Assembly: GCF_001625215.2 (NCBI RefSeq)
Contig: NC_030381.2
Location: forward strand, 43,708,689 to 43,772,688
Reading direction: 5' to 3'
DNA from: Daucus carota subsp. sativus
Lineage: Eukaryota > Streptophyta > Magnoliopsida > Apiales > Apiaceae
DNA length: 64,000 nucleotides
A program made the translations under genes and the position numbers. Below, piece after piece: positions 5,412 through 62,320 of the stretch (its first letter is position 1; every line of letters begins with the position of its first letter). Below the pieces are notes generated by a model that had not been told where the DNA came from, did not search any database, and saw only the letters and a program-made list of their open reading frames with translations.

Positions 5412-8400
5412 ATGGCGGACGAAGAAGAAAACGAGATCAGTGATGAACAGAAAATAGAAATCGCCAAATGGTTTCTTCTCAATTCTCCTCCCGGTGAAAT
5501 TCAATACGTCGCTAAAGGTGCTTTCTTTATTTCTCTTGCATTTATATTTCTTTATGATTTTGTGTGTCTATGCATTTTCTTGATCTGCTATGTATTGCAG
5601 ATGTTAAAGCTATATTGGGGGATGATACTGTGTATGAAAGTGCAGCTTCAGAGGCTTTTCCTCTTTATAATAAGGCCCATCTCATTTCCCTTCAGTTTCC
5701 TAATAGAAGTGGTGATGTATGATTTTTGCTCTCCTTTTTTCGGAATTTGTTTCGTAAAGTTTGAATCTTTTTCTGATATATAAGTTAGTGTGTGCTTCAT
5801 TGCGGAAGAAAGTTTCATTTTTGTTTATGTTTGAACTTTAAATATAAGTAATTTGATATAATGAATTGGGGTTTGATTCTGATGTGCTGTTTAAGACTTC
5901 AAGTATTCGGGGTACGGCTGAAATGACGAGTTCAATTTGAATTAATTGGGGTTTAACGAAAAATAGATTTGTTTTGGGGCTTGTAGAGAAATGGCTGTAA
6001 AAATGTTTAATGCGTTTTCTCCATTGAATTATGTCCTTTTATTGGATAACTTACATTTGTACTTGTTTGCATCATGCCTTTAGGTGCTGATTACTTCGTA
6101 TAGTGAAATTAATGCGAATGAGTATCTTGATCCTCGGACTGCACAAGTTGCAAAAGTTGACCATATAAAGCAAGTAAGTTATGTTCTTTTACAAATATAT
6201 CACGAAATTTATTTGGATTATGAATTAGGCTGTTAAGTATAGCTCTGTGTAAGAGTGTTTATAGTATTTTTCATTCAGAGCTTTTGCATTATTTTCTTTT
6301 TTTCTTGCTAAGAAATATGTTTCGTCGAGGTACAAATGACAATTTTAAAAAAAGTTTACCTTGAACATTATATTCCCTTTCGGGGTATATTGTTTCTCCA
6401 TCTTTGTTGCAGTCCACTTCCTCTATAATATAGGCTCAAAGACCTTTAAATCTTAATGAAAATTGATATAAAGTAGGGCAGTGTACATTAATTGAAGGTA
6501 ATAATAAGAATGTAAATATCATTTACTTGAGGCTTCTTCTTAACTTTGTGGTTAAATATGTACTTTTGTAATACTATGTAACTACTTGTTCAATTTTATA
6601 GTTTATTTGTTTGATTGCCATTAATGGTAAGACTAAAAGTAAGTGGTGATCTACCTACTTTCTTCGTTGCATTTAATCTATTTAATGGCTATGTGAAATT
6701 TATTCAGGTATGTAAGGAAGTGAGACCTGCTACTGATGAAGAACTTCCATCCTCATACGTTGAAGAATATCGGTACACATTGATAACTTTTCTTTTTCTG
6801 AATAGGAGCCTTACAAATGTGTCAGATTTCTTTGCATCACTTGTAAGTGTTGTCCTGTTTAACTAGGACCCAGTGTCTATTTCAACTTGATGTCTGCATA
6901 AAATTGTAGAGAATAAATATATAAAAGATTATATTTTTTCAGTTTCGATATTTTATACCTGTAGTTGGTGTGATAATTCACTGACCTAGAGAATGTGCAA
7001 ACAACGATGCATTCTATGTTTACCCATTACAACCGAAGTGTAGTCTGTTTGATTAACAGTCATGTTTCCTGTGCTTGGTTGATAAAAAATTAGTCTACTT
7101 GTGATGCTTCTAGAGTTCTAGCGTCAGTGAGTTTGATTTATTCTGGAGAACTAACAGTTTGCTACTGTACAAAACTTTTACTGGAGAAATAATCTTATAA
7201 TTCTCTGATCACAGATGTGCAGTAGAGGCAGAACTAAGTAAATATGTTGGTGAAGCTTATCCCAAAGGTGTTTGTTCAGTTTTCTGTACTAGGGGAAAGG
7301 ATGTAGAAGAACCTGGATCCGATTTTGAACTTGTTGTGGTTATTTCAGCTGCTCGACACAGCCCACAAAATTTTTGGTGAGCCTTAAATTCTGTATTTGA
7401 TTGTTCTTATTTACTTTTTTTTGGGCAATTGTATGTGACTCGTGGTGGTCTATGATTGTAATAATTAAACTTTGTAAGTTTAGATAACACACCCCTTCTT
7501 GCCAGCTAAACATTGATAATTTGTTTCTGCTTATGTGGAACCTATGTGCTTCATCTTTTTACTGGATGCCTGAGCCGAGTTGACTGCACCATTCACTAAT
7601 ACCTGATTGCCTTATTAACATACTAGTTTAAATAAGTTGTCAGATTGCTCGATGATTGGTAGTAGGCTAGTAGCTTCGTTTAATCATTTTACAGAGAAGA
7701 TGGTAGTTCTCTTACCATTTTAATATTGTGATTTATGTTTCAGTAATGGAAGTTGGCGTTCAATATGGACTATTGAGTTTAAGGACGACTTGCAAGTTGT
7801 GGAAGTAACAGGCAGAGTGCAGGTTAATAATCTCTTAATTGTATTAGCAATAATTTCTATGCACAAATTGTACTCTGTTATTTATGTATATGTGATTGTT
7901 GAATTAACACTGCATACTATCTTGAACTTATTCAGGTGGGCGCTCACTACTTTGAAGAAGGAAATGTCCAATTAGATGCAAAACATGAGTGCAAGGACTC
8001 AACGATCATTCAGGTAAATCTGTATAGATCTATGCCTCTCGGCTCTTTATTGTTTTGTGGTTTTGTTAGTCTAGCAGTTGCTTTTTAATTATTCTCAGTG
8101 AACATTTTGATTAGTTTCCTACCCCTCTAATAATTTGAAAGAATACAACATTTGTTATTAGAGGAATATGTAATAGAGGAGTATTTGAATTGAAAATTAG
8201 AGAAGAATGAATTTGATAACTATTTATTGTAATAAAGCACAGTCTATTAGTAACTATGGCCGTCTACGTGGCCCCTGTAAAGTAATCCATGTTAATGATA
8301 GAACTGTTTCATATCCACCTATGTTTTAAATATGTATTCTAGACCATTTGTTGAGCTTTCAAGTTTGGGCTCCTTTGTTCTAAAACCTTGTTAAAGTAAG

Positions 8401-10140
8401 ATATATAAGCAAGCTTAGCTCGATTCGTTTATGGAAGCTGGAGGTTGAACTTACTTTTTGAAAACTTGGCTCAGATCTATCTTGTTCATCCTACCTTGTT
8501 AATACTGGAGGGTCTTAAGCCCCCAACTATACTCAAAATCAAGAAATTTCCTGTGGCTCTAACCTTTATCGGTGCAGATACCCTATATGCTATTATGCCA
8601 CTATGTCTGTATCACGGGAAAATTCCTTGTAAAGTATAGTTGTCCCCACAGACTGAATTTATGTGGGGTGGAAACCACACAACAAAATGTCGGATACATT
8701 ACCCCTAAAGTACCATATTTAAAAAGAAATGAAATGTTAACATCTGTGGTCTCTGCATATATTTCGGACCCTGGTAAAGTTCCTTGCTTTGCCTCTTAAA
8801 TTGACATGTAGGAAGTTCAGGTTCGACTGCATATGCTCCTTGGTGTTTTATTGATCTTGAGCCACAGATTTGACAAGGAAATGGCTAATCGCCTACAGTT
8901 GTTGGAGCTGGCACTTTTAAAATGTTCAGCTTCTTGATGGCAAGTTCTATCATTCTTTTTTAGCTGGAAGTTTCCCCTCCAAATGTGATGGATAAATAAT
9001 CTGGATCTCCTATAAAGCACCTGTTATAATCAATTCTACATATATATCAAGATCATAAAAAAACCCTTACTTTTGATAACTATAATTATGGCAAGTTCTT
9101 CTGTTACAGTTTCTATAATAAACACCCTTACTAAAAGGGCAAGCTTGTTTGTTGGCTGTATTTCATGTTTTTTGGTTACTTCTTGATTGTGGGCTAATGT
9201 ATTTTATTTTCGTGTCAGGCTGCTGATGATTGTGCAATTTCCTTGACTAACATCATTCGCCATCATGAGACAGAGTACCTTACTTCTCTGCAGGTTGAGT
9301 CCTGTTACATTTTTTAGTATCCAAGTGTATTCTTTCAATAACTTGATACTGACAATTACACTATACAGGCATCCTATTCAAACTTACCCGATACTACTTT
9401 TAAGGTTTGTCTTCGAAATCTCTCAAACACATGCATCTCCATGCCAATAGATTTAGTACTTATTATTATTTTTATGTTTTCATTTTATCTTCTAGTGTAA
9501 TTAATAGAAAGTTATTGTATGAGCATGGCCACATACTTCTGCTTCTGTGAGCTGCACGTCTCAAGCATTAAAGCAATAACTTTTAGATAACAACCTTGCC
9601 TTAATCCATGAAAGTTAAAATTATAAATATTATAGGTCGACTTTGCCTCCTTTGTATAAGCATTATATTCTAGAGCCTATATAGACTTGCCTTCATCTTA
9701 ATCTATTCGCTTCACTAGTAAAAAGATTACATATCACATGAGTTTATTCAATATCAAGATCAAGCCATATAGCTGTATGATTGCGGATAATAAATATATA
9801 TACAAGGAGGGGCATCAAAATTTTCAAGCCTTTTAAGTTTTACTGTACACCGGTTTGATATCAGTCAGTACTATACCTAGCCTTGTAGTCTAAATAATGT
9901 TAATATTTTTCAGTGTCATCAATAGATATACAGTCAAGAATTAGTAAATACTTGTATTTCTAGTTCCTCTCATATAAAGAAGTTTCAGTAAGAATGTACC
10001 AACACCTTTAATCTTTTGCATCCAAAATGCAGGATCTTCGGAGGAAACTACCAGTGACGCGTACATTATTTCCATGGCATAACACTATGCAGTTTGCCCT
10101 GACTAAAGATATCACAAAAGAGCTTGGAATTGGAAAGTAG
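5412..10140 (+). CDS. CPA: F-actin-capping protein subunit alpha
   Basis: This subunit forms a heterodimer with the beta subunit that caps actin filament barbed ends and so limits filament growth in the cytoplasm. Ten exons join in frame: 5412-5517, 5601-5716, 6084-6173, 6708-6772, 7215-7376, 7744-7822, 7936-8013, 9219-9293, 9369-9404 and 10033-10140. All introns are GT-AG and the total is 915 nt (304 aa), the usual length of plant CPA. The product starts MADEEENEISDEQKIEIAKW. It carries family landmarks such as LITSYSEINANEYLDPRT, CSVFCTRGKD, GSWRSIWTIEF and VGAHYFEEGNVQL, and the C-terminal HNTMQFALTKDITKELGIGK corresponds to the actin-binding tentacle. The ATG opens the only acidic N-terminus matching the family. 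No damage is seen. Confidence 0.95.
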
Positions 10141-22940: not shown

Positions 22941-26064
<3,124 letters not shown>

Positions 26065-38791: not shown

Positions 38792-39101
38792 TATATTATA
38801 TTCTAACATTCTCTGTTTTTTAATTTTGTGAATATACGGTGTGCGTGGGCATGTTACTGGTTTTTTTGAATGATTTATTTTGGAACAAACTTTTTTCTTC
38901 TAAAACTTCCTGTTTAACGGGGCAAAGGAGTTACTTAACAAACTGCTACAGCTTGAATTGACTTATAAGGACTCATTAAAAGTTAAGAGGATAATTCAGT
39001 TAGATATCCTATATTCGAGGCTTTCAGTTAACTTACTGATGCATGATATTTGGACTATATCTGACATATCATCTGCAGTGAACAGAATCATACTGAGAAA
39101 T

Positions 39102-40598
39102 ATGGCTAAAGCATTTTTCTTCGTCTTGATGATGACTCTAACTTCATTTTCTGTAGCTTGTCATGCACAAGTGAGTGATGCCTCGGTGAATCTCTTGAAG
39201 AATTGCAGATTTAATAAGATATTTCAGTTCGGAGATTCTCTTTCGGACACGGGAAATATAGCCATTGAGGTTCCCAACATCATTTCGGCCAAGCTGCCTT
39301 ATGGTTTCATGTCTAATTTCTCCAAGCCCACCGGCCGGTGCTCAAACGGTCTCCTTATGATCGACTACATTGGTATAAACTTAATGTTTATATGTATTTT
39401 TTTCGATTTTAAGTTAATTTGATATATTTGAGATGTAACATAATGTTTTGTTTGTTGAGCTGACAGCAAAGGCAGCAGGACTTCCGTATCTGCATCCGTA
39501 TATGAATCGAAATGCACATTTTAAACATGGAATAAATTTTGCTGTGGCCAGCTCTACTGCAATGTCAGTGGAAGATCTGGCCAAGAGAAATATTACTGTA
39601 AATGATAAGACTAGTAATAGTTCTCTCCAAGTGCAGATCGATTGGATGTCTGATTTTCTCGCGACTTATTGCATGCCTGGACGAGGTTTTCATTTTATTT
39701 TCTTGAAAATGTTACTTATCCTTGATAAAGAAATTGATTTGCAGTAATAAATGTTTGTTATATTTGGATTTGGTGTACAGATTGTGAATCCAAGCTCAAA
39801 ATGGCCTTGTTTATGATGGGAGAGACCGGAGGAAATGACGTGAATGCTGCTCTGTTGAATAGAAAGTCGGATAAAGAAATTAAGGCCCTCTTTCCAGCCG
39901 TTGTGGAAACCATAATGAACGCGACCAGGGTAAATTTTGAACAATATATATGTTCACAGGTTCTTGTTAAGGTTAGTGGCTGATGGAATTTTGGTTTCAT
40001 TGGCTGCATTATCAGCAAATTATCAAGTTTGGGGCACGGACGATTGTGATTCCAGGAAACCTTCCAATTGGTTGTTTGCCGGTTTATCTAGCAATGTATG
40101 GAACCAAAGGCGCTGCACATGACAAAAATCATTGCCTGAGGAGGCTAAACCACCTAGCCATTCATTACAACAGGCATTTGCAAAATGGAATTAGTCGGTT
40201 GAGAGCTGAGCGCCCAGGCGTCAAAATAATATATGGGGACCTTTATAATGCATTTGAATGGCTTATTGATCATGCTCCAGCTCTAGGTTTGCCTACCAAT
40301 AATTTGAACTATAATTATTTTCTTATCATTGAGTAATACGAGTCTACATTACTAGTTTGAATTGTCAATAACAGGTTTTGATGAAGATTCATTGCTGATA
40401 GCTTGTTGCGGAGCTGGGGGGAAATACCATGTCGGAGGATTTGCAAAATTTTGTGGATCACGAGGAGTTTCAGTGTGTTCGAATCCAGATGGACACTTAA
40501 ACTGGGATGGAGTTCATCCAACACAAAAAGCAAACAAGTATTTGTCATCATGGCTTATTAAAGACATGTTACCAAAGCTGGATTGCCCTTCATCTTGA
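39102..40598 (+). CDS. GDSL esterase/lipase (first of a tandem pair)
   Basis: GDSL (SGNH) hydrolases are secreted serine esterases acting on varied acyl esters. Exons 39102-39372, 39467-39685, 39781-39929, 40016-40286 and 40375-40598 total 1134 nt (377 aa), normal for plant members. Residues 1-22 form a signal peptide ending at ACHA. Block I is FGDSLSDTG with nucleophile Ser46; block III is GETGGND with Asn182; block V is DGVHPT with Asp348 and His351. Block II reads NFAVASSTA, so the expected oxyanion-hole Gly is Ser119. The open frame extends 48 codons upstream of the chosen ATG, but only this ATG gives a secretion signal. The acetylajmalan-esterase-like subfamily is the nearest I can suggest. 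All five exons have the same phases as the paralogue at 43470. Confidence 0.9.
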
Positions 40599-43469: not shown

Positions 43470-45041
43470 ATGGCTTCCACAAAGAAATTGTCGATTTTTT
43501 ACTTGCTTATGCTTGTTTCTTCATTATCTTTATCGAATGCAACATTCATAAGCCAGCAAGCCCGGAGAATGTACGTGGATGCCTCATTGTTCATGTTCCG
43601 AAATTGTCAGTTCGAAAAGATTTATCAGTTCGGAGATTCCATGTCTGATACTGGAAATATCGTTATTGAGAATCACAAAAAGGAAGCTTCAAATAGACTG
43701 CCCTATGGTGAAACTTTCTTTGGGAGACCTACTGGTCGCAACTCAAATGGTTTACTCATGATCGACTACATTGGTAATTAAAAAAAATACAAATCACTAT
43801 ATTGTTGTGTAATTTGAGATAGGTATGATGTTTAGTTTTCTGATTTTGCAGCATGGGCGGCTGGTCTTTCGTTGTTGAATCCGTTCAATGACAAAAAGGC
43901 CAATTTTGACTCTGGAGTCAATTTCGCGGTAGCTGGTTCAACTGCAACTTCAGTTGAGAAATTGGAAGCCCAACACATTCCTGGGAATATCACGACTACT
44001 CATTCTCTCGATGTCCAAGTTAGATGGATGGACGAATATCTTGCCAAATTTTGCAAAGGCGATGCAGGTTTTGTCACTTTGGTTCGATGAATATTGTCTG
44101 ATTGATTAATTGTGTTCTGGTATATATTTGATTGTCACGTTGTGCAGATTGCGGTGATAAGCTTAAGAATTCTTTGTTCATGGTGGGAGAGACGGGGGGA
44201 AATGACTACAATTATGCTCTGATGGCGAGGAAAACTATCAAAGAAATTAAAGCCACTGTGTCACAGGAGGTGGTAGACACCATAATAAATGGTACAAGGG
44301 TGAGTTCATTAAGAAAACATAAGAGCTTCTTTTGTTTTGGTTTGTAATTATTCTGTTAAATTTTGTGCTTGTGTTGTGTCAGAGACTAATTAGTCGTGGG
44401 GCACGGAAGTTGATTGTACCTGGGAATTTCCCAGTAGGCTGTTTACCGATTTACCTAACTCTTTTCCAAACCAAAAACTCGACGTTTGATGAGCATGGTT
44501 GCTTGAAGGAGTACAATGAACTTTCCATGTACCACAATACGAAGCTAAAAGATGCACTAGATCAGTTGCAAGAAGAAGCCCCGTACACGACTATAGTATA
44601 TGGAGATTACTACAATGCCTATCTGTGGGTTTACACACATGCGAAAGATCTAGGTAAGTTTATAGCTTTCTGATGTTAAGAGAATTTTCTGTATTTTTAT
44701 AACATGTCCTCTGTTTTTAATCAAAAATTCTTCAAACTGTGGAAACTACTTGAGGGTGACCTGAGGTCCATTTTTCGGTTAAATATCTGTATGTGATTCT
44801 ATTCTGAGGTTTAAATTTTGTTTTGTTGGTAGGTTTTAAATCATTGCAAAAGGCTTGTTGTGGAATTGGCGGTAAATATAATGTGGGGTTTGGAAAAATG
44901 TGTGGTGACCCGGGTGTTCCGGTGTGCCCTGATCCAAATAATCACCTGAACTGGGATGGTGTTCATCCGACACAACAAACAAATATGTTTCTGGCGACTT
45001 GGCTCATCACTAACATGTTACCTTCTTTAGATTGTTATTAA
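43470..45041 (+). CDS. GDSL esterase/lipase (second of a tandem pair)
   Basis: A secreted SGNH-fold serine esterase. Exons 43470-43773, 43852-44067, 44148-44299, 44383-44653 and 44833-45041 total 1152 nt (383 aa). The N-terminus MASTKKLSIFYLLMLVSSLS is a signal peptide ending near NAT. Block I is FGDSMSDTG with Ser57; block II NFAVAGSTA keeps the oxyanion-hole Gly; block III is GETGGND with Asn192; block V is DGVHPT with Asp356 and His359. All catalytic elements are therefore intact, unlike block II of the upstream copy. Intron positions and phases match the first gene exactly, so the pair arose by tandem duplication, but the proteins have diverged widely. Substrate unknown. Confidence 0.93.
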
Positions 45042-53111: not shown

Positions 53112-53683
53112 GAGAAATGCTACGGACACAGAAAGCGGTACAGAAAATAATTACAGAATGATGTGGCAGCTTGAGGTGGACCGAGTATTTAATATGTTGT
53201 CTGCCACTAACCTAGTTACCAGCTTTTTCTCACATCTGTAATATGTTCCTTATGTTATCCTTTGTTTGTACTATCTTCTAATTAATATTTTGATATTTTA
53301 AATAATTGTTAATTCTAAAATATTTCATATTAATATATATTATTTTAAATTTCTTATTTGAATAACCCATATTTATGTAAACATATGTATTTGTATACTA
53401 TAATTAATGAAAATTAAGTGTTTAATTGAAATTCTGATTTTTCCAAAAAACTAAAATAATTTCAAAACAAAATACTTTAAATACATTGAAAAATAGAGTA
53501 ATAAAAAACTAAAAAAGTGATTACATATAAAAAGCAAGAGAATAACTATAAAACCCTCACATATTATATATATTACGAGTCTAATATAGTAAATTTATCA
53601 ATTTACATCAAAATATTACGAAAATAAAATTAGTGACATAAATAATTTAAAAGGAAAATATAATGAGAATTAAAAGGTGAAAT

Positions 53684-53727
<44 letters not shown>

Positions 53728-54472
53728 CATATAAAATATATATTTTTGAAATTATTTTAGTTATTTAAAAAATCGCATGTGAAATATTTAAATTAGACTT
53801 TTCATTTTCATTGATTATATTATACAAATAGCCGACATAAATATATTGAAAAATAAAGTAATAAAAACTAGAAAGTTTGATTACATATAAAAAAGTATAA
53901 GAATAATTTTAAAAAAAATCCTCACATATTATATATTTCACGAATATAATGTAGTAAAGTTATTAATTTAGTTCAAAATATTATACAGTTAAAATAAGTG
54001 ACAAATAACTAAGAAAAGACAATAAAAATTAAAAAGTGAATCACATAAAGAAGAAGATAAAATAAACAATGAAAATGTAATTCATATAAAGTATTTTTTT
54101 CTGAAATTATTTTAGTTTTTTGGAAAAATCACAAGTGAAATATTTGAATTAAACACCTCATCTTCATTAATTATAGTATACAAATACGTATGTTTATGTA
54201 AATATGAGTTATTCAAATAAGAAATTTAAAATAATATATATTAGTTTGATATATGTTAAAATTAATAATTATTTAAAATATAAAAATGTTAAAAGATAGT
54301 ACAAAGTACAAACAAAGGATAACATAAGTTAAAAAAAATAAAAAGTAACAGTGATAAAGGACCTGTAACTAGATCAGTGGCGGACAACATATTAAATGCT
54401 CCGTCCAACTCAAGCTGCCATATCATTCTGTAACTGTTTTCTGTAGCGTGTTCCGTGCATGTAGCATTTCTC
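53112..54472. mobile_element. Large MULE-type foldback element
   Basis: Inverted ends begin GAGAAATGCTAC and stay alignable for roughly 400 bp, through blocks such as TTACAGAATGAT, GGCAGCTTGAG, TTTAATATGTTGTC and ATTTTAAATTTCTTATTTGA. The flanks TTTTTATCA (53103-53111) and TTTTTATTA (54473-54481) are a 9-bp duplication with one change. The core repeats an AT-rich unit of about 330 bp twice in direct orientation (around 53490 and 53840) and has a TA tract at about 53689-53723. No transposase. Confidence 0.85.
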
Positions 54473-55669: not shown

Positions 55670-58015
55670 ATGAGCTTACTTGATCAGCTCTGGGACGACA
55701 CTGTCGCCGGTCCTCGCCCGGATTCCGGCCTCGGAAAGCTTCGTAAACAGTCCAGCTTAGGCTTTTTATCCGTCAACTCTGCCGACGTTAACAAGGGTAC
55801 GCACCCACCCTATCAATATCTATATCTGAAAATAATCATCAATCAACCTGAACACGGTTGGATAACTCAGTGGTTAAAAATTTATTCTTTGTCGTTCAGG
55901 TCTTGAGTTCGACCTGACTATCCCGAAAATTAATCACATGTTACATGGAACAAAGCATCGACAAGATTATCGGTTTCCATAATTGTTGTAATTTATCAGA
56001 TGTTTATAAATGTTTGGTTTTCTGACGGATAATTGTTATAAATTATTAGATATTTATAGATGCTCGATGTGGTACTGAGATGTTATAAAAGCTTGATATA
56101 GTGTGTATGTAGCTAGGTTAATAAAGCTATGGTAGTATAAATCTGATTGAACGTTGATCTGTGGCAGTATCGGACGGTGGGAATATGAGATCAGGCGGGG
56201 ATACTCCGGCGAGAGTTACGCGAAGCATAACGATTCTGAAGCCGCCTGTAGTCGGAGATCAGAGTGAGACGCCGCCAGCTTCGCCGGCAGGATCTACAAC
56301 TCCGAATTCTCCGTTTTCGAGTAAGTATTATTGGTGCTTTTTCAGTATTCTTGTGTTTGCCCCTGGGCTGGGGCGGATCTAGGAAGAGGCACGGGGGGAC
56401 ACGTGCCCCCCCTAAATTTTTTTTTTTACAGTTTTTCACCATTCTAAATTTTACAAAATTATAGAAGTGCCCCCCAAGATTTGAAAATATATAGGTGTTT
56501 TCCGAAAATTTGCTTGGTGCCCCCAAGATTTTGGGTCTAGATCCGCCCCTGCCCCTGGGTCGGTATATACGTAGGGGTGTTTAAAGGGGATTGATTATGG
56601 GAGCAAGGGTAATGTGGTCAAATAGAGTGTTGTCGCTGGGTAAGATGGATATGTATCCTGTTAGATAAACAATAAGATAAAGTTAGGAGGATGCAATTAT
56701 TATGTTGGGCACTATTAGAAAACGACGTGCATCTTTGGCTAATATACTGATCCAGTAAACTTCCTTTTTCTTTTTGAGGGCATATCAATTTAAAATAAAA
56801 AATAGAGTATAACTTTATGAAAGTAAATAAAACTCGATAATCAATCACAAGCTTATTAATTTTTCTTATTCATGTAAGACATGATCGCAGATTTCGGGAA
56901 TCGGAACTAATCGGTTGAGCCAACGATTCAGAAATTATGATTTATCAGATTTTTTATTAATAGTCTGGCCCGACCAAAGACTGATAGCCGGAACTTTTAA
57001 TCAAATCAGAATATAAACGATAAATTAATCAAATATTTTTTTTTAAATTTAACTAGAGATTTTCAGAACACTGACAAAAAATCCGAAAGATTCACAAATA
57101 ATGAGGGGAGAATTGAATCCAGCACTTACTCTATTACTTATTGTATCGGGGACCTCACAGTCCCTTGGCCACTATGTCCATCTGTTAAGTATTTAAGCTG
57201 ATCCAACGGCTACAAGTGTTATAGTATAAACTACAACATATTAAGTATAAAATTGAATGAATCATGTCATTCTCAGTGACTTGGTAGATTCAAATGTTTG
57301 GACTTTTCTTTTCGTATATATGTTTATGTTGATTATATTAATAATATATGTCATTTTACATCGCATCATGCGGGGCGGGCTGATCATTCTTAATATGTAG
57401 CTTGACACATTCAAGGAACATCTAATCTTATAAATAAGATTTAATTATGTGACAATCTTACATTAATAAACCTCATTTGTCCCGGAGTGGATTATTGTTG
57501 CTTTCAAGGTGTAGCTATATAATTGACATATCCCAAACGAAGCTAAGTATCTTGATAACATGATCAGACTAATCTTGATGTCAAGATCAGTTGCATGAAA
57601 TTATTGGCGGATCCTGGAATTGATAGATCGAGGCTTGATTGATATTAAGAAAAAAACCAAATTTTCACAGTTCTCGATGTCAGATATAAAGTCATACATA
57701 TTAAATATGAAGAAGCATGATTGCTTAATTGGATAATCATGATCAGTAGATCCATCAGTTATACAGTCTTGTGTGTAGGCATGGTTAATTATTATTTGGT
57801 CATCTGTATGTGCAAGCTTGTTTCCTCTTGATATGTTTACTCTTATTTCCCTTGACCAATATTGTACTCCAAAACAATCTATATCACTAACCTGAGGTTT
57901 TCCTTTTAATCTAGGAGGAGGGTCCTTCCAATTCCGTAGAAGGTCCGTGTTGGAAACCTATGAGAAAGCAAGCGGAATCGGATTCAAGAGCCCTCGTCCT
58001 CCTTATGACATATGA
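55670..58015 (+). CDS. Dormancy/auxin-associated family protein (DRM1/ARP-like)
   Basis: Members of this small plant family rise in dormant buds and under sugar or auxin depletion; their biochemical role is unknown and much of the chain is predicted disordered. Exons 55670-55796, 56168-56320 and 57915-58015 total 381 nt (126 aa). The N-terminus MSLLDQLWDDTVAGPRPDSG and GLGKLRK are the family signature. RVTRSITILKP, the Ser/Thr/Pro-rich PPASPAGSTTPNSPF and RRRSVLETYEKA follow in the expected order, and the C-terminus is SPRPPYDI rather than the more common SPTVYDW. Intron 2 carries a small MULE-like insertion, and a CACTA element starts 92 bp after the stop codon, within or next to the 3' UTR. 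Confidence 0.92.
56368..56549. mobile_element. Small MULE-like MITE in intron 2 of the dormancy gene
   Basis: The ends CTGGGGCGGATCTAG and GGGGCGGATCTAGACC (right, reverse complement) are inverted. They are flanked by a perfect 10-bp direct repeat TGCCCCTGGG (56358-56367, 56550-56559). The interior has CACGTGCCCCCC and GTGCCCCC words and a T-run. Confidence 0.75.
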
Positions 58016-58610
58016 GATTTCCTTAGCGGAAATAGTCACTAGCTGTTACATATGTACTTTGCTTCCCTGTTCAAGAAATGAGGAGTGCATTGGAATGTTA
58101 TTACTATCACTACACCATAAGTGGCCTATTGTAACAAATAATTTTGGTGTTACAAGATAAAATGTTACCATAGGTGCCTTAAAATGAATTTTATCTACAT
58201 ATGCCTACACCTTTTTTTAGTGTAACCATAGGTAAAGTACAGTGTAATCGTAGATGTAATGAGACATCTATGCTAACATTTTATTTGGTGTTACCGTTGG
58301 TTTTAAAATAAGTGTAACTAATTGCTGAATTGTTTTGGGCGGCTGAAATGAAACATGCGCGGGATAACTTCAAAATAATTAAAAACAGAAAGGGGGAAAA
58401 TAAAGTCTTGCCCTAAAATTAAAACTAAAACAAAAACACTACAGTTGCGTTGTCCTAAAACTAAAAAAGCTCCCTCTCTCTCGAACACTCTCCTCAGCTC
58501 ACCTCTCACCTCTCTCAAAATCAATCGCGATCACTCACTCACTGAACCCTAAACCACCCACCCACCCACCCAGTCACCCACTCAACACTCACTAACCAGT
58601 CACTCACTCA

Positions 58611-58760
58611 GTCGGGTCTGCAATCGGGCTACAATCGGGTTTACAATCGGGTCTACGCTCTTCAACTGGGTTTTTACTCTCAATCGGGTAGCAATTTGGT
58701 GTTCAATTGAGTCTTAAGTTGGGGTTTTCAATTGGGTTTTCATTCGGGACTTGAACTAGG
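58611..58760. repeat. Repeats of CAATCGGGT in the leader-like segment
   Basis: CAATCGGGT or close variants (CAACTGGGT, CAATTGGGT) occur about eight times in 150 bp. Just upstream are CACTCA and CACCCAC runs. The segment looks like a 5' leader with a promoter and may drive a chimeric transcript. Confidence 0.6.
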
Positions 58761-59284
58761 GTTTTTTGTATAATATTGGATTAGATACTGCATCCTTTTG
58801 TATGAACAGGTATATTTTCTCACCTACTACTATTATTCTTTAGCCCTGTTGACAAACAACTGCTGCCCAGACTTTCAGTTCCTCGTTTAAGGTACTAATT
58901 TTGATTTATCACTCCATTTTTTTAGAATTTTATCTTTATGTGATTTTTGATTTGTGAGTACTTATGTTATTTTTTTTTTGTAAGGAGTACTTATGTTATT
59001 TTGATTGCTTGATATTTGCTGTTTTTATATGTTTGTTTGATGGGGTTGTTAAAGTTTGAATCTTGAAGATTTTCCCAGCTTTGTGTACTGTGATCTTGAT
59101 TCTTGTTGACTTGGTGGACTCAGTCAGCTAATTGAACTGATGGGTGTTTTTTATATTGATTTGTTATGATTTTTTGGGTACTTTTGATTGCTCTGCACTG
59201 CAAAATAAGATAGCTATTGCAATCTATTGGAAGTTCAGTATTATTCATAAATTAAATAGAAATGGCGCTGCATCTGCTTGACAG

Positions 59285-59675
59285 TGTGTTTAGACGCGGA
59301 GAACTTTAAAAACTTCAAGCTGGTTGAGCGCAAACAGCTTAGTCACAATGTCGCTGAATTCAAGTTTGCACTTCCCACACCTACTTCAGTGCTTGGCCTT
59401 CCAATCGGACAACACATTAGTTGCAGGTTTGGCTGATTGATTTGTCTTTTAATTAGTTTTCTTTAACCTTTGCCTATTACAAGGCATATATAGTTTCTTT
59501 AATCATACGATCATATGTGGCTTGTTATACAGATATATAATTGTATTATTATTCAAAAATATACTAAAAATAAGTGTCAAACAGAGGTAAAGACAGCCAA
59601 GGTGAAGAAGTTATTAAACCATAGACATCTACTACTCTGGACTCAGATGTTGGACATTTTAAATTAGTTATTAAG
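59285..59675 (+). pseudogene. Captured NADH-cytochrome b5 reductase exons
   Basis: Two exons with the parental intron between them. The first, 59285-59426, encodes [20 protein letters not shown] followed by a stretch ending [10 protein letters not shown]. The second, 59585-59675, encodes RGKDSQGEEVIKP, then an in-frame TAG where the Tyr of the PYTP flavin-binding motif belongs, then TSTTLDSDVGHFKLVIK. Splice sites are intact. The parent is the microsomal CBR1 type. As carried here it cannot make a working reductase; the membrane anchor, the rest of the FAD domain and the NADH domain are absent. Confidence 0.9.
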
Positions 59676-59810
59676 GTATATACTCAAGTTCCTTAAGCAG
59701 GATTATTGGCCGAGGCTCCATTCACATAGTTCTTTGTTTCTGTGATATAATGCATATATGAGAAAATTTGTGATTCTCCTAGTCTTTTCTTTTGTTCTGT
59801 GCATTGGTAG

Positions 59811-60130
59811 ACAGATAATATTTTTGAGGACTCCTTGCAAGAGATTCAACTTTCATATGACAATGTCAAGAAGTTAACCATTTATAGGTTACCAGGCCAA
59901 TTGGGAGTGGTAAGACTTCATTGCTAAGAGCTATCGCTGGTCTCTGGAGTACTGGTCAGGGAAGCATCAGATTCTATGGGAAGACTGCTGAGGATTCTAG
60001 CATACCCCCTTCTTCAGATTCAACTCCTTAAAAACCAAGCGCTCCAACCAATTCCACTGGAAATCTAAAAAGACCTAATTCTAGAGGTGTATTTTTCCTT
60101 CCACAAGTGCTCTAGATGAAGCTAATGAGG
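59811..60130 (+). pseudogene. Captured ABCD-type half-transporter fragment with internal deletion
   Basis: The nucleotide-binding domain of an ABC subfamily D protein is recognisable as RPIGSGKTSLLRAIAGLW, where the first Gly of Walker A has become Arg (near 59893). After a divergent linker, RGVFFLPQ (the block after Walker A) runs directly into out-of-frame STSALDEANE, which normally follows Walker B. The roughly 60-100 residues between them, including the ABC signature, are deleted. The fragment ends at a GT. The parent is probably the plastid/peroxisomal ABCD2-like type. Non-functional. Confidence 0.85.
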
Positions 60131-61052
60131 TACTCTCTCTTTACTTTTTTGTCGTTCTGTCTTGAACTGTACAGTATTGCGGAAGCCTTAAAATATAAAA
60201 CTAATATTGCAAAAATACTGAAAAAGGTCAGAAACCAGAGCTGGATTCTTTAGAAATGGGATTGTAGATTAGATTATTATTCCATTTCTGTTGGTCGCTA
60301 CTGTAGTTACACCTAGAGAATATTAGTTTTGACTAAAGAAATTGAAAATGTGTAATGACAACGTTATTTCTATGACTTGTTTTTCAGTTATCAGGTCAAT
60401 CAGTGAGTTTGCATCACTCTCTTGTTCTCTTTATTGGTTGGTATAGTTTACCAGGCAGAGTGATTTGTTGGTTTGCCAGCAGTTGTCAAGCTATAGATAA
60501 GCTGTGGCCTTTATATTTAACACATGTTATTCATTTATTTTATTACACTTAATTTTAATGTTTTCCAACAAACTAAATTATTTATTTGTCTGCCTAACCG
60601 AGAGGGAGGTTGAGAGGGTGGAATGCTGTATCGGTTTTATGTATGGATCTTTCGCAGCACATAGCAACATACTTTTTGCTCTGATATAGGATTATGACCA
60701 CTTATTTACTTTTGTATATATGAAACATTTCTTGATTGTGTTTAGTATCTAGACCTGATGTAATTATGCTTCTTCAAAACAAAATTAAAGAGGCTTTTAA
60801 ACCTAAGCCTGCAACTCGTAAGAACAATTAATTTGTCTAATTTTCATCCGGATCTTATATATACTTTGAATTGGATAGATCATAGAAGTAATAAAAGAAG
60901 AAGAAAAAATTTCTTGTCACGTCAATTGATCAAAGATATATAATTTAAAACCATTAACTATATAATAATAGGTGGCATTGCCACTTTTATCTTCTTGATG
61001 CTGTAGTAGTAGACTATTACTTTTTTTTTTAAACCTTTGTTTTATATTGTAG

Positions 61053-61113
61053 ATTCACCACTACACCCAGCCACACATCCAAATGAATGAATATCGAGAC
61101 CGTGTAATATTGG
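61053..61113 (+). pseudogene. Exon-like fragment of an unidentified gene in the CACTA body
   Basis: Between TTGTAG and GTAAGC a clean short exon reads IHHYTQPHIQMNEYRDRVIL. The splice signals are good. I do not recognise the parent gene. Confidence 0.45.
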
Positions 61114-61429
61114 TAAGCATGTAGCCTTTGTGATCTTCCTGACCAATCACCTAATTAGTAGATATTCTTGTAATATGATCCTGTAATTACAGATATTAGA
61201 TATCTGAAAAAAAAAGTAAGAACATAAGGATGTTACTAGAGCCAGAACTTATATTACGTAATTATTACAGAAATTAGTTACTCTTCCATATCTGATACAT
61301 CATAATATCTATACTTATGTAGTGTTTACATTTTTCTAATATTTGTTCTTGAAGAAGAGTAAAGAAGATTTGATTCGTATATTTTCTATCCAACATTATA
61401 CATTTGTGATGAAAGATTTCAATAACAGG

Positions 61430-61615
61430 TTTACGTAGAAAGTCAAGCAGCAGATTAGTAAAGGACAATATGAAGCTGCAACTAATTCATGGAGTGAACT
61501 TGAGAATGTTATATATTCTTCGGATTTGGCATACCAGAATCCAGATTTGAAGATCAATCTCGATGAGTCCGACAAGTATACAGAAGCAGAAGCAGAGTCA
61601 TTTGAGTCTGATTAG
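61430..61615 (+). pseudogene. Captured fragment resembling a serine carboxypeptidase-like protein
   Basis: After an acceptor-like AACAG the frame reads VKQQISKGQYEAATNSWSEL followed by ENVI, then a divergent acidic tail ending in TAG at 61613. The first part resembles the linker of SCPL50/51-type serine carboxypeptidases, which precedes the VDFYNFLLD motif; that motif is absent here. The identification is tentative. Confidence 0.4.
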
Positions 61616-62320
61616 TAGTAATACTTGTCGCAATTTAACTCTGTTTTGGTTTTTAATTGTACCTCATGATTATGATGTATTTTAATTGTTGCTGGTTGGT
61701 ATAGCCAGGCTTGGAGCTCTGTTTTTGGTAATTATTGGAATTGTGTTTGTTGTTGGATATTGATTGGTAAATTTGAAATGGAGAAGTGCTATTTTCAGAT
61801 GTAATATTGCCTTTTTTTTCCCGATAAAGTGTTGGCTAAGAGTCTTGTAAAGTGTAGCTTGTAAAGTGTAGCTAGCTATTGTTGTAAATGGTTCATAATT
61901 CTCTGTTGCTAAATATCAAAAAATGTTGGTAAAGATATAAAAAATGTAGGTAAAGGTAGAAAGGTTTATATAAAAATGTAACCATAACTAACAAGATGTT
62001 GCCATTGATAACTTAGTTTTTTAAAGTTCAGTGTTACAGTAGCACAAATGGTGTTACCATAGGCCTATAGTTACAGCTCATTTAGTGTTACCAAAGCAAA
62101 TCAAAGTGTAGGCATAGAGGTGTATGGTTACACTTTTTGAGGTGTAACCAAAAAATGAAAATATGTTACCCTAGACCCCTATGGTAGCACCGATTTTAGT
62201 TACGATCCTGTTTTGTGAAAAAGTGTTACCATAGCCCTTTTTTGCACTTTCAGCAACACTTTCTGGCCTTTATTCACACTTTTTTGGTTGTTACAATAGG
62301 CCACTTATGGTGTAGTGTAT

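Follow-up and report, generated by a model that had tools for sequence, protein, structure and literature searches.

The 64,000-nt stretch of the Daucus carota subsp. sativus genome analyzed here (the window; C1:43708689-43772688 of a 441-Mb assembly in 11 contigs) contains a CACTA transposon of 4210 bp at positions 58108-62317. This transposon is a non-autonomous, gene-carrying Pack-CACTA element. Alignment to the rest of the genome indicates that its interior, between the 5' leader and the element's own last exon, has been replaced by pieces of five host loci, probably six. The chimera was probably assembled by gap repair with template switching, as a Pack-CACTA element, and then mobilized in trans, which we regard as the best explanation. 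Elements of the Pack-CACTA kind are already known; what is new is the resolution of the cargo to individual donors and the sense-only pattern of the captured gene fragments.

The element begins and ends with 30-nt inverted repeats (58108-58137, + strand; 62288-62317, - strand) that are 100% complementary, and the target site duplication TAT is present on both sides (58105-58107 and 62318-62320), exactly as the first-pass annotation had reported. Sequences resembling GTGTTACCATAGG (two mismatches or fewer) are confined within the element to its two ends, 58125-58300 and 62051-62300, and are found elsewhere in the window once, at 43702. The inverted ends, the 3-bp duplication and the subterminal repeats in both orientations place the element in the CACTA superfamily. 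Two stretches are the transposon's own and align with two relatives in the genome, L010 and L011. The first, 58108-58765 (+), consists of subterminal repeats and the 5' leader. In the second, 61526-62317 (+), the final exon of the relatives' second gene is represented by its C-terminal codons, and the 3' untranslated region and subterminal repeats follow. The second gene of the relatives gave no Pfam family match; from its position, we take it to be TNPA-like.

These alignments redraw several borders within the element. The leader-like segment with its own repeats that had been noted previously belongs to the transposon itself, as its 5' end, only as far as about 58765, whereas 58767-59260 is the 5' region and intron of a captured gene of the CBR1 type. 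The open reading frame at 61439-61615, once assigned wholly to a third captured gene, is a fusion in one frame; it is a carboxypeptidase piece to about 61519, but from about 61526 it is the C-terminus of the transposon's second gene. No transposase domain or family was found in cargo frames of 42 amino acids (aa) or more on either strand. The earlier statement that the element has no transposase therefore stands for the domain, although a remnant of one of the transposon's own genes persists at the 3' end. Host coding fragments in the absence of a transposase domain make this a Pack-TYPE element.

Donors were located by one genome search with the element interior followed by local refinement, and gene names were taken from Pfam and PDB matches of the captured or donor frames. 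The donors tile nearly the whole cargo, leaving gaps of approximately 30 nt and a few bases, and the five main ones are separate loci on C4, C5 and C6; the sixth is weak. The first capture, 58767-59741 (+), comes from an NADH-cytochrome b5 reductase gene of the CBR1 type and comprises two pieces, with 87 and 91% identity to the C4 donor (C4:45119404-45119776 and 45120102-45120672). It opens at the TATA-like sequence TGTATAAATA and includes a 5' exon, part of intron 1 and two coding exons, with the donor's start-codon exon skipped (exons read by eye). The frame at 59260-59436 matches Pfam FAD_binding_6 (E = 1.1e-9; 2.7e-16 when joined to the next exon, with X at its stop), and the captured CBR1 frame matches cytochrome b5 reductase 1 in PDB (2.8e-13). 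The next 80 nt (59741-59821) match C5:6983258-6983336 from end to end (78%, E = 8.5e-8), the probable sixth donor. They are followed by an ABCD-type ABC transporter capture, 59822-60618 (+; C5:8336115-8338180), made up of three ordered pieces (59822-59879, 59878-60105 and 60100-60618) with identities of 93, 95 and 91%. Its Walker-A exon (59888-60031) scores 23.8 bits against ABC_tran (E = 7.7e-5), below the cut-off of 25; the donor gene matches ABC_tran at 8.1e-17 and the PDB entry 'ABC transporter D family member 1' at 1.2e-42. The reductase and transporter exons proposed from inspection of the sequence are both confirmed by these matches.

The remaining cargo is derived from three further loci. 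A SEC14-like (CRAL_TRIO) gene is the source of 60621-61179 (+; C4:47071500-47072056, 90%), a piece with a single exon at 61053-61112 and both of its splice sites. The flank of a TFIIB-related gene is the source of 61172-61346 (C5:13586503-13586682, 87%). This donor stretch at C5:13.59 Mb starts approximately 260 nt past the end of a same-strand frame with a TFIIB repeat and ends approximately 300 nt short of an opposite-strand frame, and the gene orientation is not firm. After 30 nt with no assigned donor (61347-61376), the last capture, 61377-61519 (+; C6:10629983-10630126, 92%), comes from a serine carboxypeptidase-like gene and comprises a splice acceptor with a partial exon. The SEC14-like gene, the TFIIB-related flank and the probable sixth donor are additions to what the first reading had recognized. 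Introns are retained and splice sites are present in the captured gene pieces. Read by eye, homology at the joints within the element is 0-3 nt, or 4 when a single later mutation is assumed; other joints have 1-2 nt of filler. A run of GHFYNFxKFRM was also observed in frames at window positions 56191-56580 and at L042:1991-2384, the carboxypeptidase donor locus, and appears to belong to an unnamed dispersed repeat.

The chimera itself has transposed and is present in more than one copy. A relative on C6, L009, carries the same cargo across the whole element with 97.7% identity and is flanked by its own duplication, ATG. The two copies are distinguished by 25 of 2758 cargo positions; at 171 of 2573 positions they agree with each other but not with the donors. 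Substitution rates in plants are 0.7-1.3e-8 per site per year. Applied to the copy and donor divergences, these rates give rough dates of 0.35-0.65 My ago for the separation of the copies and 2.7-5.3 My ago for the capture. No difference in divergence was detected among the five main donors (chi-square p = 0.49) or among eight pieces (p = 0.38), as expected for a single episode of assembly.

The first 501 nt of the element have at least 34 matches in the genome, with some elements matched twice. A pattern for the family's terminal sequence, searched with two mismatches or fewer, identified 73 ends (0 for the reversed-pattern control), some of which, at two mismatches, may come from a neighboring family; the family therefore has at most approximately 35 two-ended elements. 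Relatives were examined in 20 regions, of which 17 had both ends, and identical 3-bp duplications flank all of the two-ended elements except L011 and L014 (15 of 17). Apart from L009, the two-ended relatives (16) carry different interiors and have only their ends in common with the window element, save for a short piece in L021. In L014 (C9:45.70 Mb; 537 bp), the right end stops three bases early (GGTGTA) and is followed by TGA, the triplet that precedes the left end; its duplication would match with the end placed three bases earlier. Transposase coding was found in L011 (8.8 kb), where three of the five scanned frames match Transposase_21 (2.5e-95), Transpos_assoc, DUF4218 and DUF4216, and L010 (5.6 kb) has Transpos_assoc in one of two frames scanned. 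By its ends, the window element is related to this transposase-coding CACTA lineage of the same genome. The search with 500-bp ends that had been proposed to find sister and autonomous elements was thus productive for sisters and for the copy with the same cargo, but the transposase-coding relative has altered ends. A copy near C2:27.24 Mb is similar to the 3' end of L011.

Patchwork cargo is not restricted to the window element. Six sister interiors were searched, with donors taken as the best-matching loci, for which a paralogue could be the true donor. Cargo from multiple donors was present in five of these six other cargo types, and two of the five are nested in an A-B-A arrangement. The cargo of L012 is derived from at least four loci and that of L022 from five, while L025 combines approximately nine, with pieces as short as 50-90 nt. 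In L017, C2 sequence is flanked on both sides by C6 sequence, and a second, short C2 locus also contributes. L019, of which L020 is a second copy, draws on five loci; one C2 locus, which overlaps its thiolase frame, supplies pieces on either side of a nested C7 piece. L022 and L025 have their downstream cargo in common (88%), with upstream cargo that matches different loci; cargo therefore turns over, and capture recurs. L021 took a piece from the SEC14-like donor of the window element, with different borders. It also contains a repeat of high copy number, and two other loci match the first 719 nt of L021 at 81%. The SEC14-like piece of L021 (L021:1553-1860; C6:15.487 Mb) is in the sense orientation, as in the window element. 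The two pieces may stem from a single capture, but they overlap by only approximately 85 bp, and the differences that they have in common could have arisen in the donor lineage. The repeat in L021 (2070-2540) is a nested, MITE-like sequence of approximately 460 bp; the query as a whole gave 578 candidates at first look. A long TA-type microsatellite, with frames of repeated IYIY, occurs in the L017 cargo at 8283-8682.

Judged from structure, gap repair is the most likely route to these patchworks. Interrupted synthesis would fill breaks in the element's DNA, or gaps left in it by excision, by switching among unlinked templates, most of them genic, that share little or no homology where the switches occur. 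Transposase supplied in trans would then move the finished chimera, producing at least two copies. Interrupted gap repair predicts that pieces are short, that parts of a donor are skipped and that the first donor reappears later, and all three were seen. The same process is cited for capture in a study of Chenopodium CACTA elements (PMC8978399).

Homology at the junctions was compared with that of 1156 simulated blunt joins (9% divergence, default blastn). The comparison covered 26 junctions, 5 of them in the window; for the 21 outside it, the null settings may differ from those of the genome tool, and the tests were chosen post hoc. Four kinds of junction were dropped: those with gaps of more than 10 nt, those with the element's own ends, an L012 junction where tandem C2 pieces overlap by 38 nt, and an L021 junction with a 16-nt overlap and no assigned left partner. 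Overlaps of 2 nt or more occur at 16 of the 26 junctions, as compared to 27% of simulated joins (p = 2.8e-4; rank test p = 0.02).

Several observations weigh against gap repair by template switching. The excess of overlaps rests on skips within a donor (10 of 13, p = 2.9e-4), which are possibly later deletions. Between donors, overlaps of 2 nt or more (6 of 13, against 27% simulated) are not above chance (p = 0.12; rank p = 0.36). Microhomology was dropped on this basis as a signature of jumps between donors, and since homology there is at chance level, end-joining of fragments fits as well as template switching. L011, the sole transposase-bearing copy read (C6:15685105-15693930), has a changed first base (AACTA) and an altered right end, without a matching duplication. 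Finally, filling with random DNA would not be expected to give sense fragments only.

Fusion of neighboring insertions, the model proposed for Pack-CACTA elements of Arabidopsis, is an unlikely alternative source of the cargo. In this model, two family insertions lie near each other and the outer ends move together with the intervening DNA; the published accounts include supporting examples (PMC8903248; PMC13317346). Turnover of cargo between sisters, such as L022 and L025, could be explained in this way. For the window element, the inner ends would have to be lost and the process repeated five to six times at different loci. The model predicts remnants of inner ends and donors flanked by family elements, and the failure to see either counts against it: between the donor pieces of the window element there is no clear family end or subterminal remnant (one 18-nt match, E = 0.057), and the approximately 1.5 kb examined around each of the five main donors contain no end-like sequence. 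That the donors do not differ in divergence also argues against fusion. A-B-A nesting and pieces of approximately 50-90 nt require another route, and the multi-donor, nested patchworks therefore favor break repair with template switching.

The orientation of captured fragments was compared in nine cargo types (the window element, L012, L017, L018, L019, L021, L022, L023 and L025; each cargo was represented once, and no other relatives were included) using all frames between stops, on the two strands, that reach 42 aa. GATA, FAD_binding_6, Thiolase_C, OPT and ABC_tran were matched strongly among 104 sense frames (E = 3e-14 to 8e-5), as compared to no Pfam family among 99 antisense frames. Four further sense families were weak (E = 0.003-0.0073) and were counted as chance or as parts of the ABC and OPT frames. 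All nine fragments of firm orientation are sense (two-sided p = 0.004, in a test chosen post hoc and with fragments inside one element possibly non-independent); for the Pfam-only subset the result is 5 of 5 (p = 0.06). The firm set includes CBR1, ABCD, SEC14-like and carboxypeptidase fragments from the window element, as well as thiolase (L019), SEC14-like (L021), OPT (L022), GATA (L023) and carboxypeptidase (L025) fragments from sisters. The orientation of the L025 fragment, a peptide with no Pfam match, is taken from hits on the same C2 strand as those of the window exon. Three pieces were omitted: the TFIIB-flank piece, situated between frames that converge, and two that were read by eye as sense, namely a CSC1-like fragment of L012 without a Pfam match and an L025 reductase exon (E = 0.099).

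The sense-only pattern, the least expected of the results, would follow if antisense pieces are removed or silenced, or else if capture depends on transcription. It is conceivable, if doubtful, that the family captures or keeps gene fragments in the sense orientation only and builds patchworks of up to approximately nine loci by serial template switching, with ongoing transcription of both element and donors as part of the capture machinery. If the sense-only reading is true, it would point to transcription-coupled or pre-mRNA-templated repair instead of orientation-blind filling with DNA. No title among the literature matches listed concerned a sense bias of captured fragments. Sense bias has been claimed for Pack-MULEs and Helitrons.

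Uniform sense orientation and kept introns would both be explained if unspliced pre-mRNAs were the templates, with switching between them during gap filling or during reverse transcription of an element transcript. The conclusion of the first-pass annotation that capture took place at the DNA level fits the kept introns, but not to the strict exclusion of such a template. We consider capture from RNA improbable. The CBR1 piece opens at its TATA-like sequence, probably upstream of the transcript start, and the TFIIB-flank piece is possibly outside any transcript. No spliced junction was seen in the captured pieces, and selection against antisense fragments could produce the same bias.

Could the element instead be a functional chimeric gene under selection? 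Marker strings around the splice sites are identical in the window copy and L009 in 8 of 10 cases (the other two differ somewhere in the string), and the carboxypeptidase piece continues in frame into the transposon's last exon. However, a search of 16 modelled splice forms for an open frame across the spliced exons gave at most 66 aa from an ATG, outside the donor frame. Both copies carry a stop where the last exon begins, and the window copy has an additional one in exon 4 of CBR1. A selected chimeric gene is thus very improbable, and a coding product appears unlikely from the predicted frames. If transcribed, the element would yield a spliced, non-coding chimeric RNA with exons in sense. 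For the host, exons of four genes are duplicated in sense, and chimeric transcripts or silencing by small RNAs could follow from this.

An old gene cluster or an assembly error between CACTA-like ends can be dismissed, given separate donor loci on C4, C5 and C6, a second copy on another chromosome with its own duplication, and joined flanks that match the genome only at the present locus; these same observations bear out the original proposal that a CACTA element captured unrelated genes, and the contrary arrangement, with the pieces together and free of a transposon, was not seen in the search of the present genome.

Other features were noted in the window. A 365-bp AT-rich unit is present as a tandem pair at 53478-54186 (77% matches). 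Inspection by eye suggests exons of a cellulase-like gene (glycosyl hydrolase family 9) at 22941-24861 (-) and of two GDSL esterase-like genes at 38904-40336 (+) and 44323-45041 (+). G+C content is 45% in positions 1-2000, as compared to 25-39% in the remaining 2-kb steps, and a 39-bp tandem repeat is located at 420-504.

These results address the question of how CACTA elements acquire unlinked genes. The family is suited to this question because it combines a small number of two-ended elements with donors that can be found, nesting, cargo turnover and a possible sense-only rule. The end sequence of the element did not occur in the literature searched, and no title among the matches listed for carrot and captured CACTA fragments concerned the present family.

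Among known systems, maize Helitrons that carry several gene fragments per element are described as the products of stepwise capture (PMC3288121). The carrot element resembles them in having several fragments in one element. Helitrons are rolling-circle elements that depend on a different enzyme and have neither inverted ends nor target duplications. In the Tpn1 family of Ipomoea nil, the non-autonomous members have conserved termini, interiors are captured genic sequence, some of it transcribed, duplications are of 3 bp, and few of the 339 elements encode TnpA and TnpD (PMC5105172). The carrot family likewise has conserved termini, host-derived interiors and 3-bp duplications, although it is smaller, with 73 ends and two-ended elements numbering at most approximately 35.

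Pack-TYPE elements are defined by ends, duplications and coding fragments without a transposase, and multi-locus cargo is reported in the same work, most of it in maize Pack-CACTAs (PMC8903248). The carrot element fits the same definition as the Pack-CACTAs of Arabidopsis, rice and maize, and its cargo is also multi-locus. That work explains capture by neighboring insertions, whereas the carrot patchwork is without clear internal end remnants and its relatives have nested donors. Tgm-Express1 of soybean is a CACTA element with fragments of five unrelated genes in which exons and introns are kept and splice sites are usable (PMC1947982). The carrot element is similar in having multi-gene fragments with introns and splice sites. 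Tgm-Express1 lies in the intron of a gene and its exons were shown to be spliced into that gene's RNA, whereas for the carrot element splicing is predicted. For the carrot element, in turn, the donors have been located in the genome, and an exon of the transposon's own gene survives in part at its 3' end.

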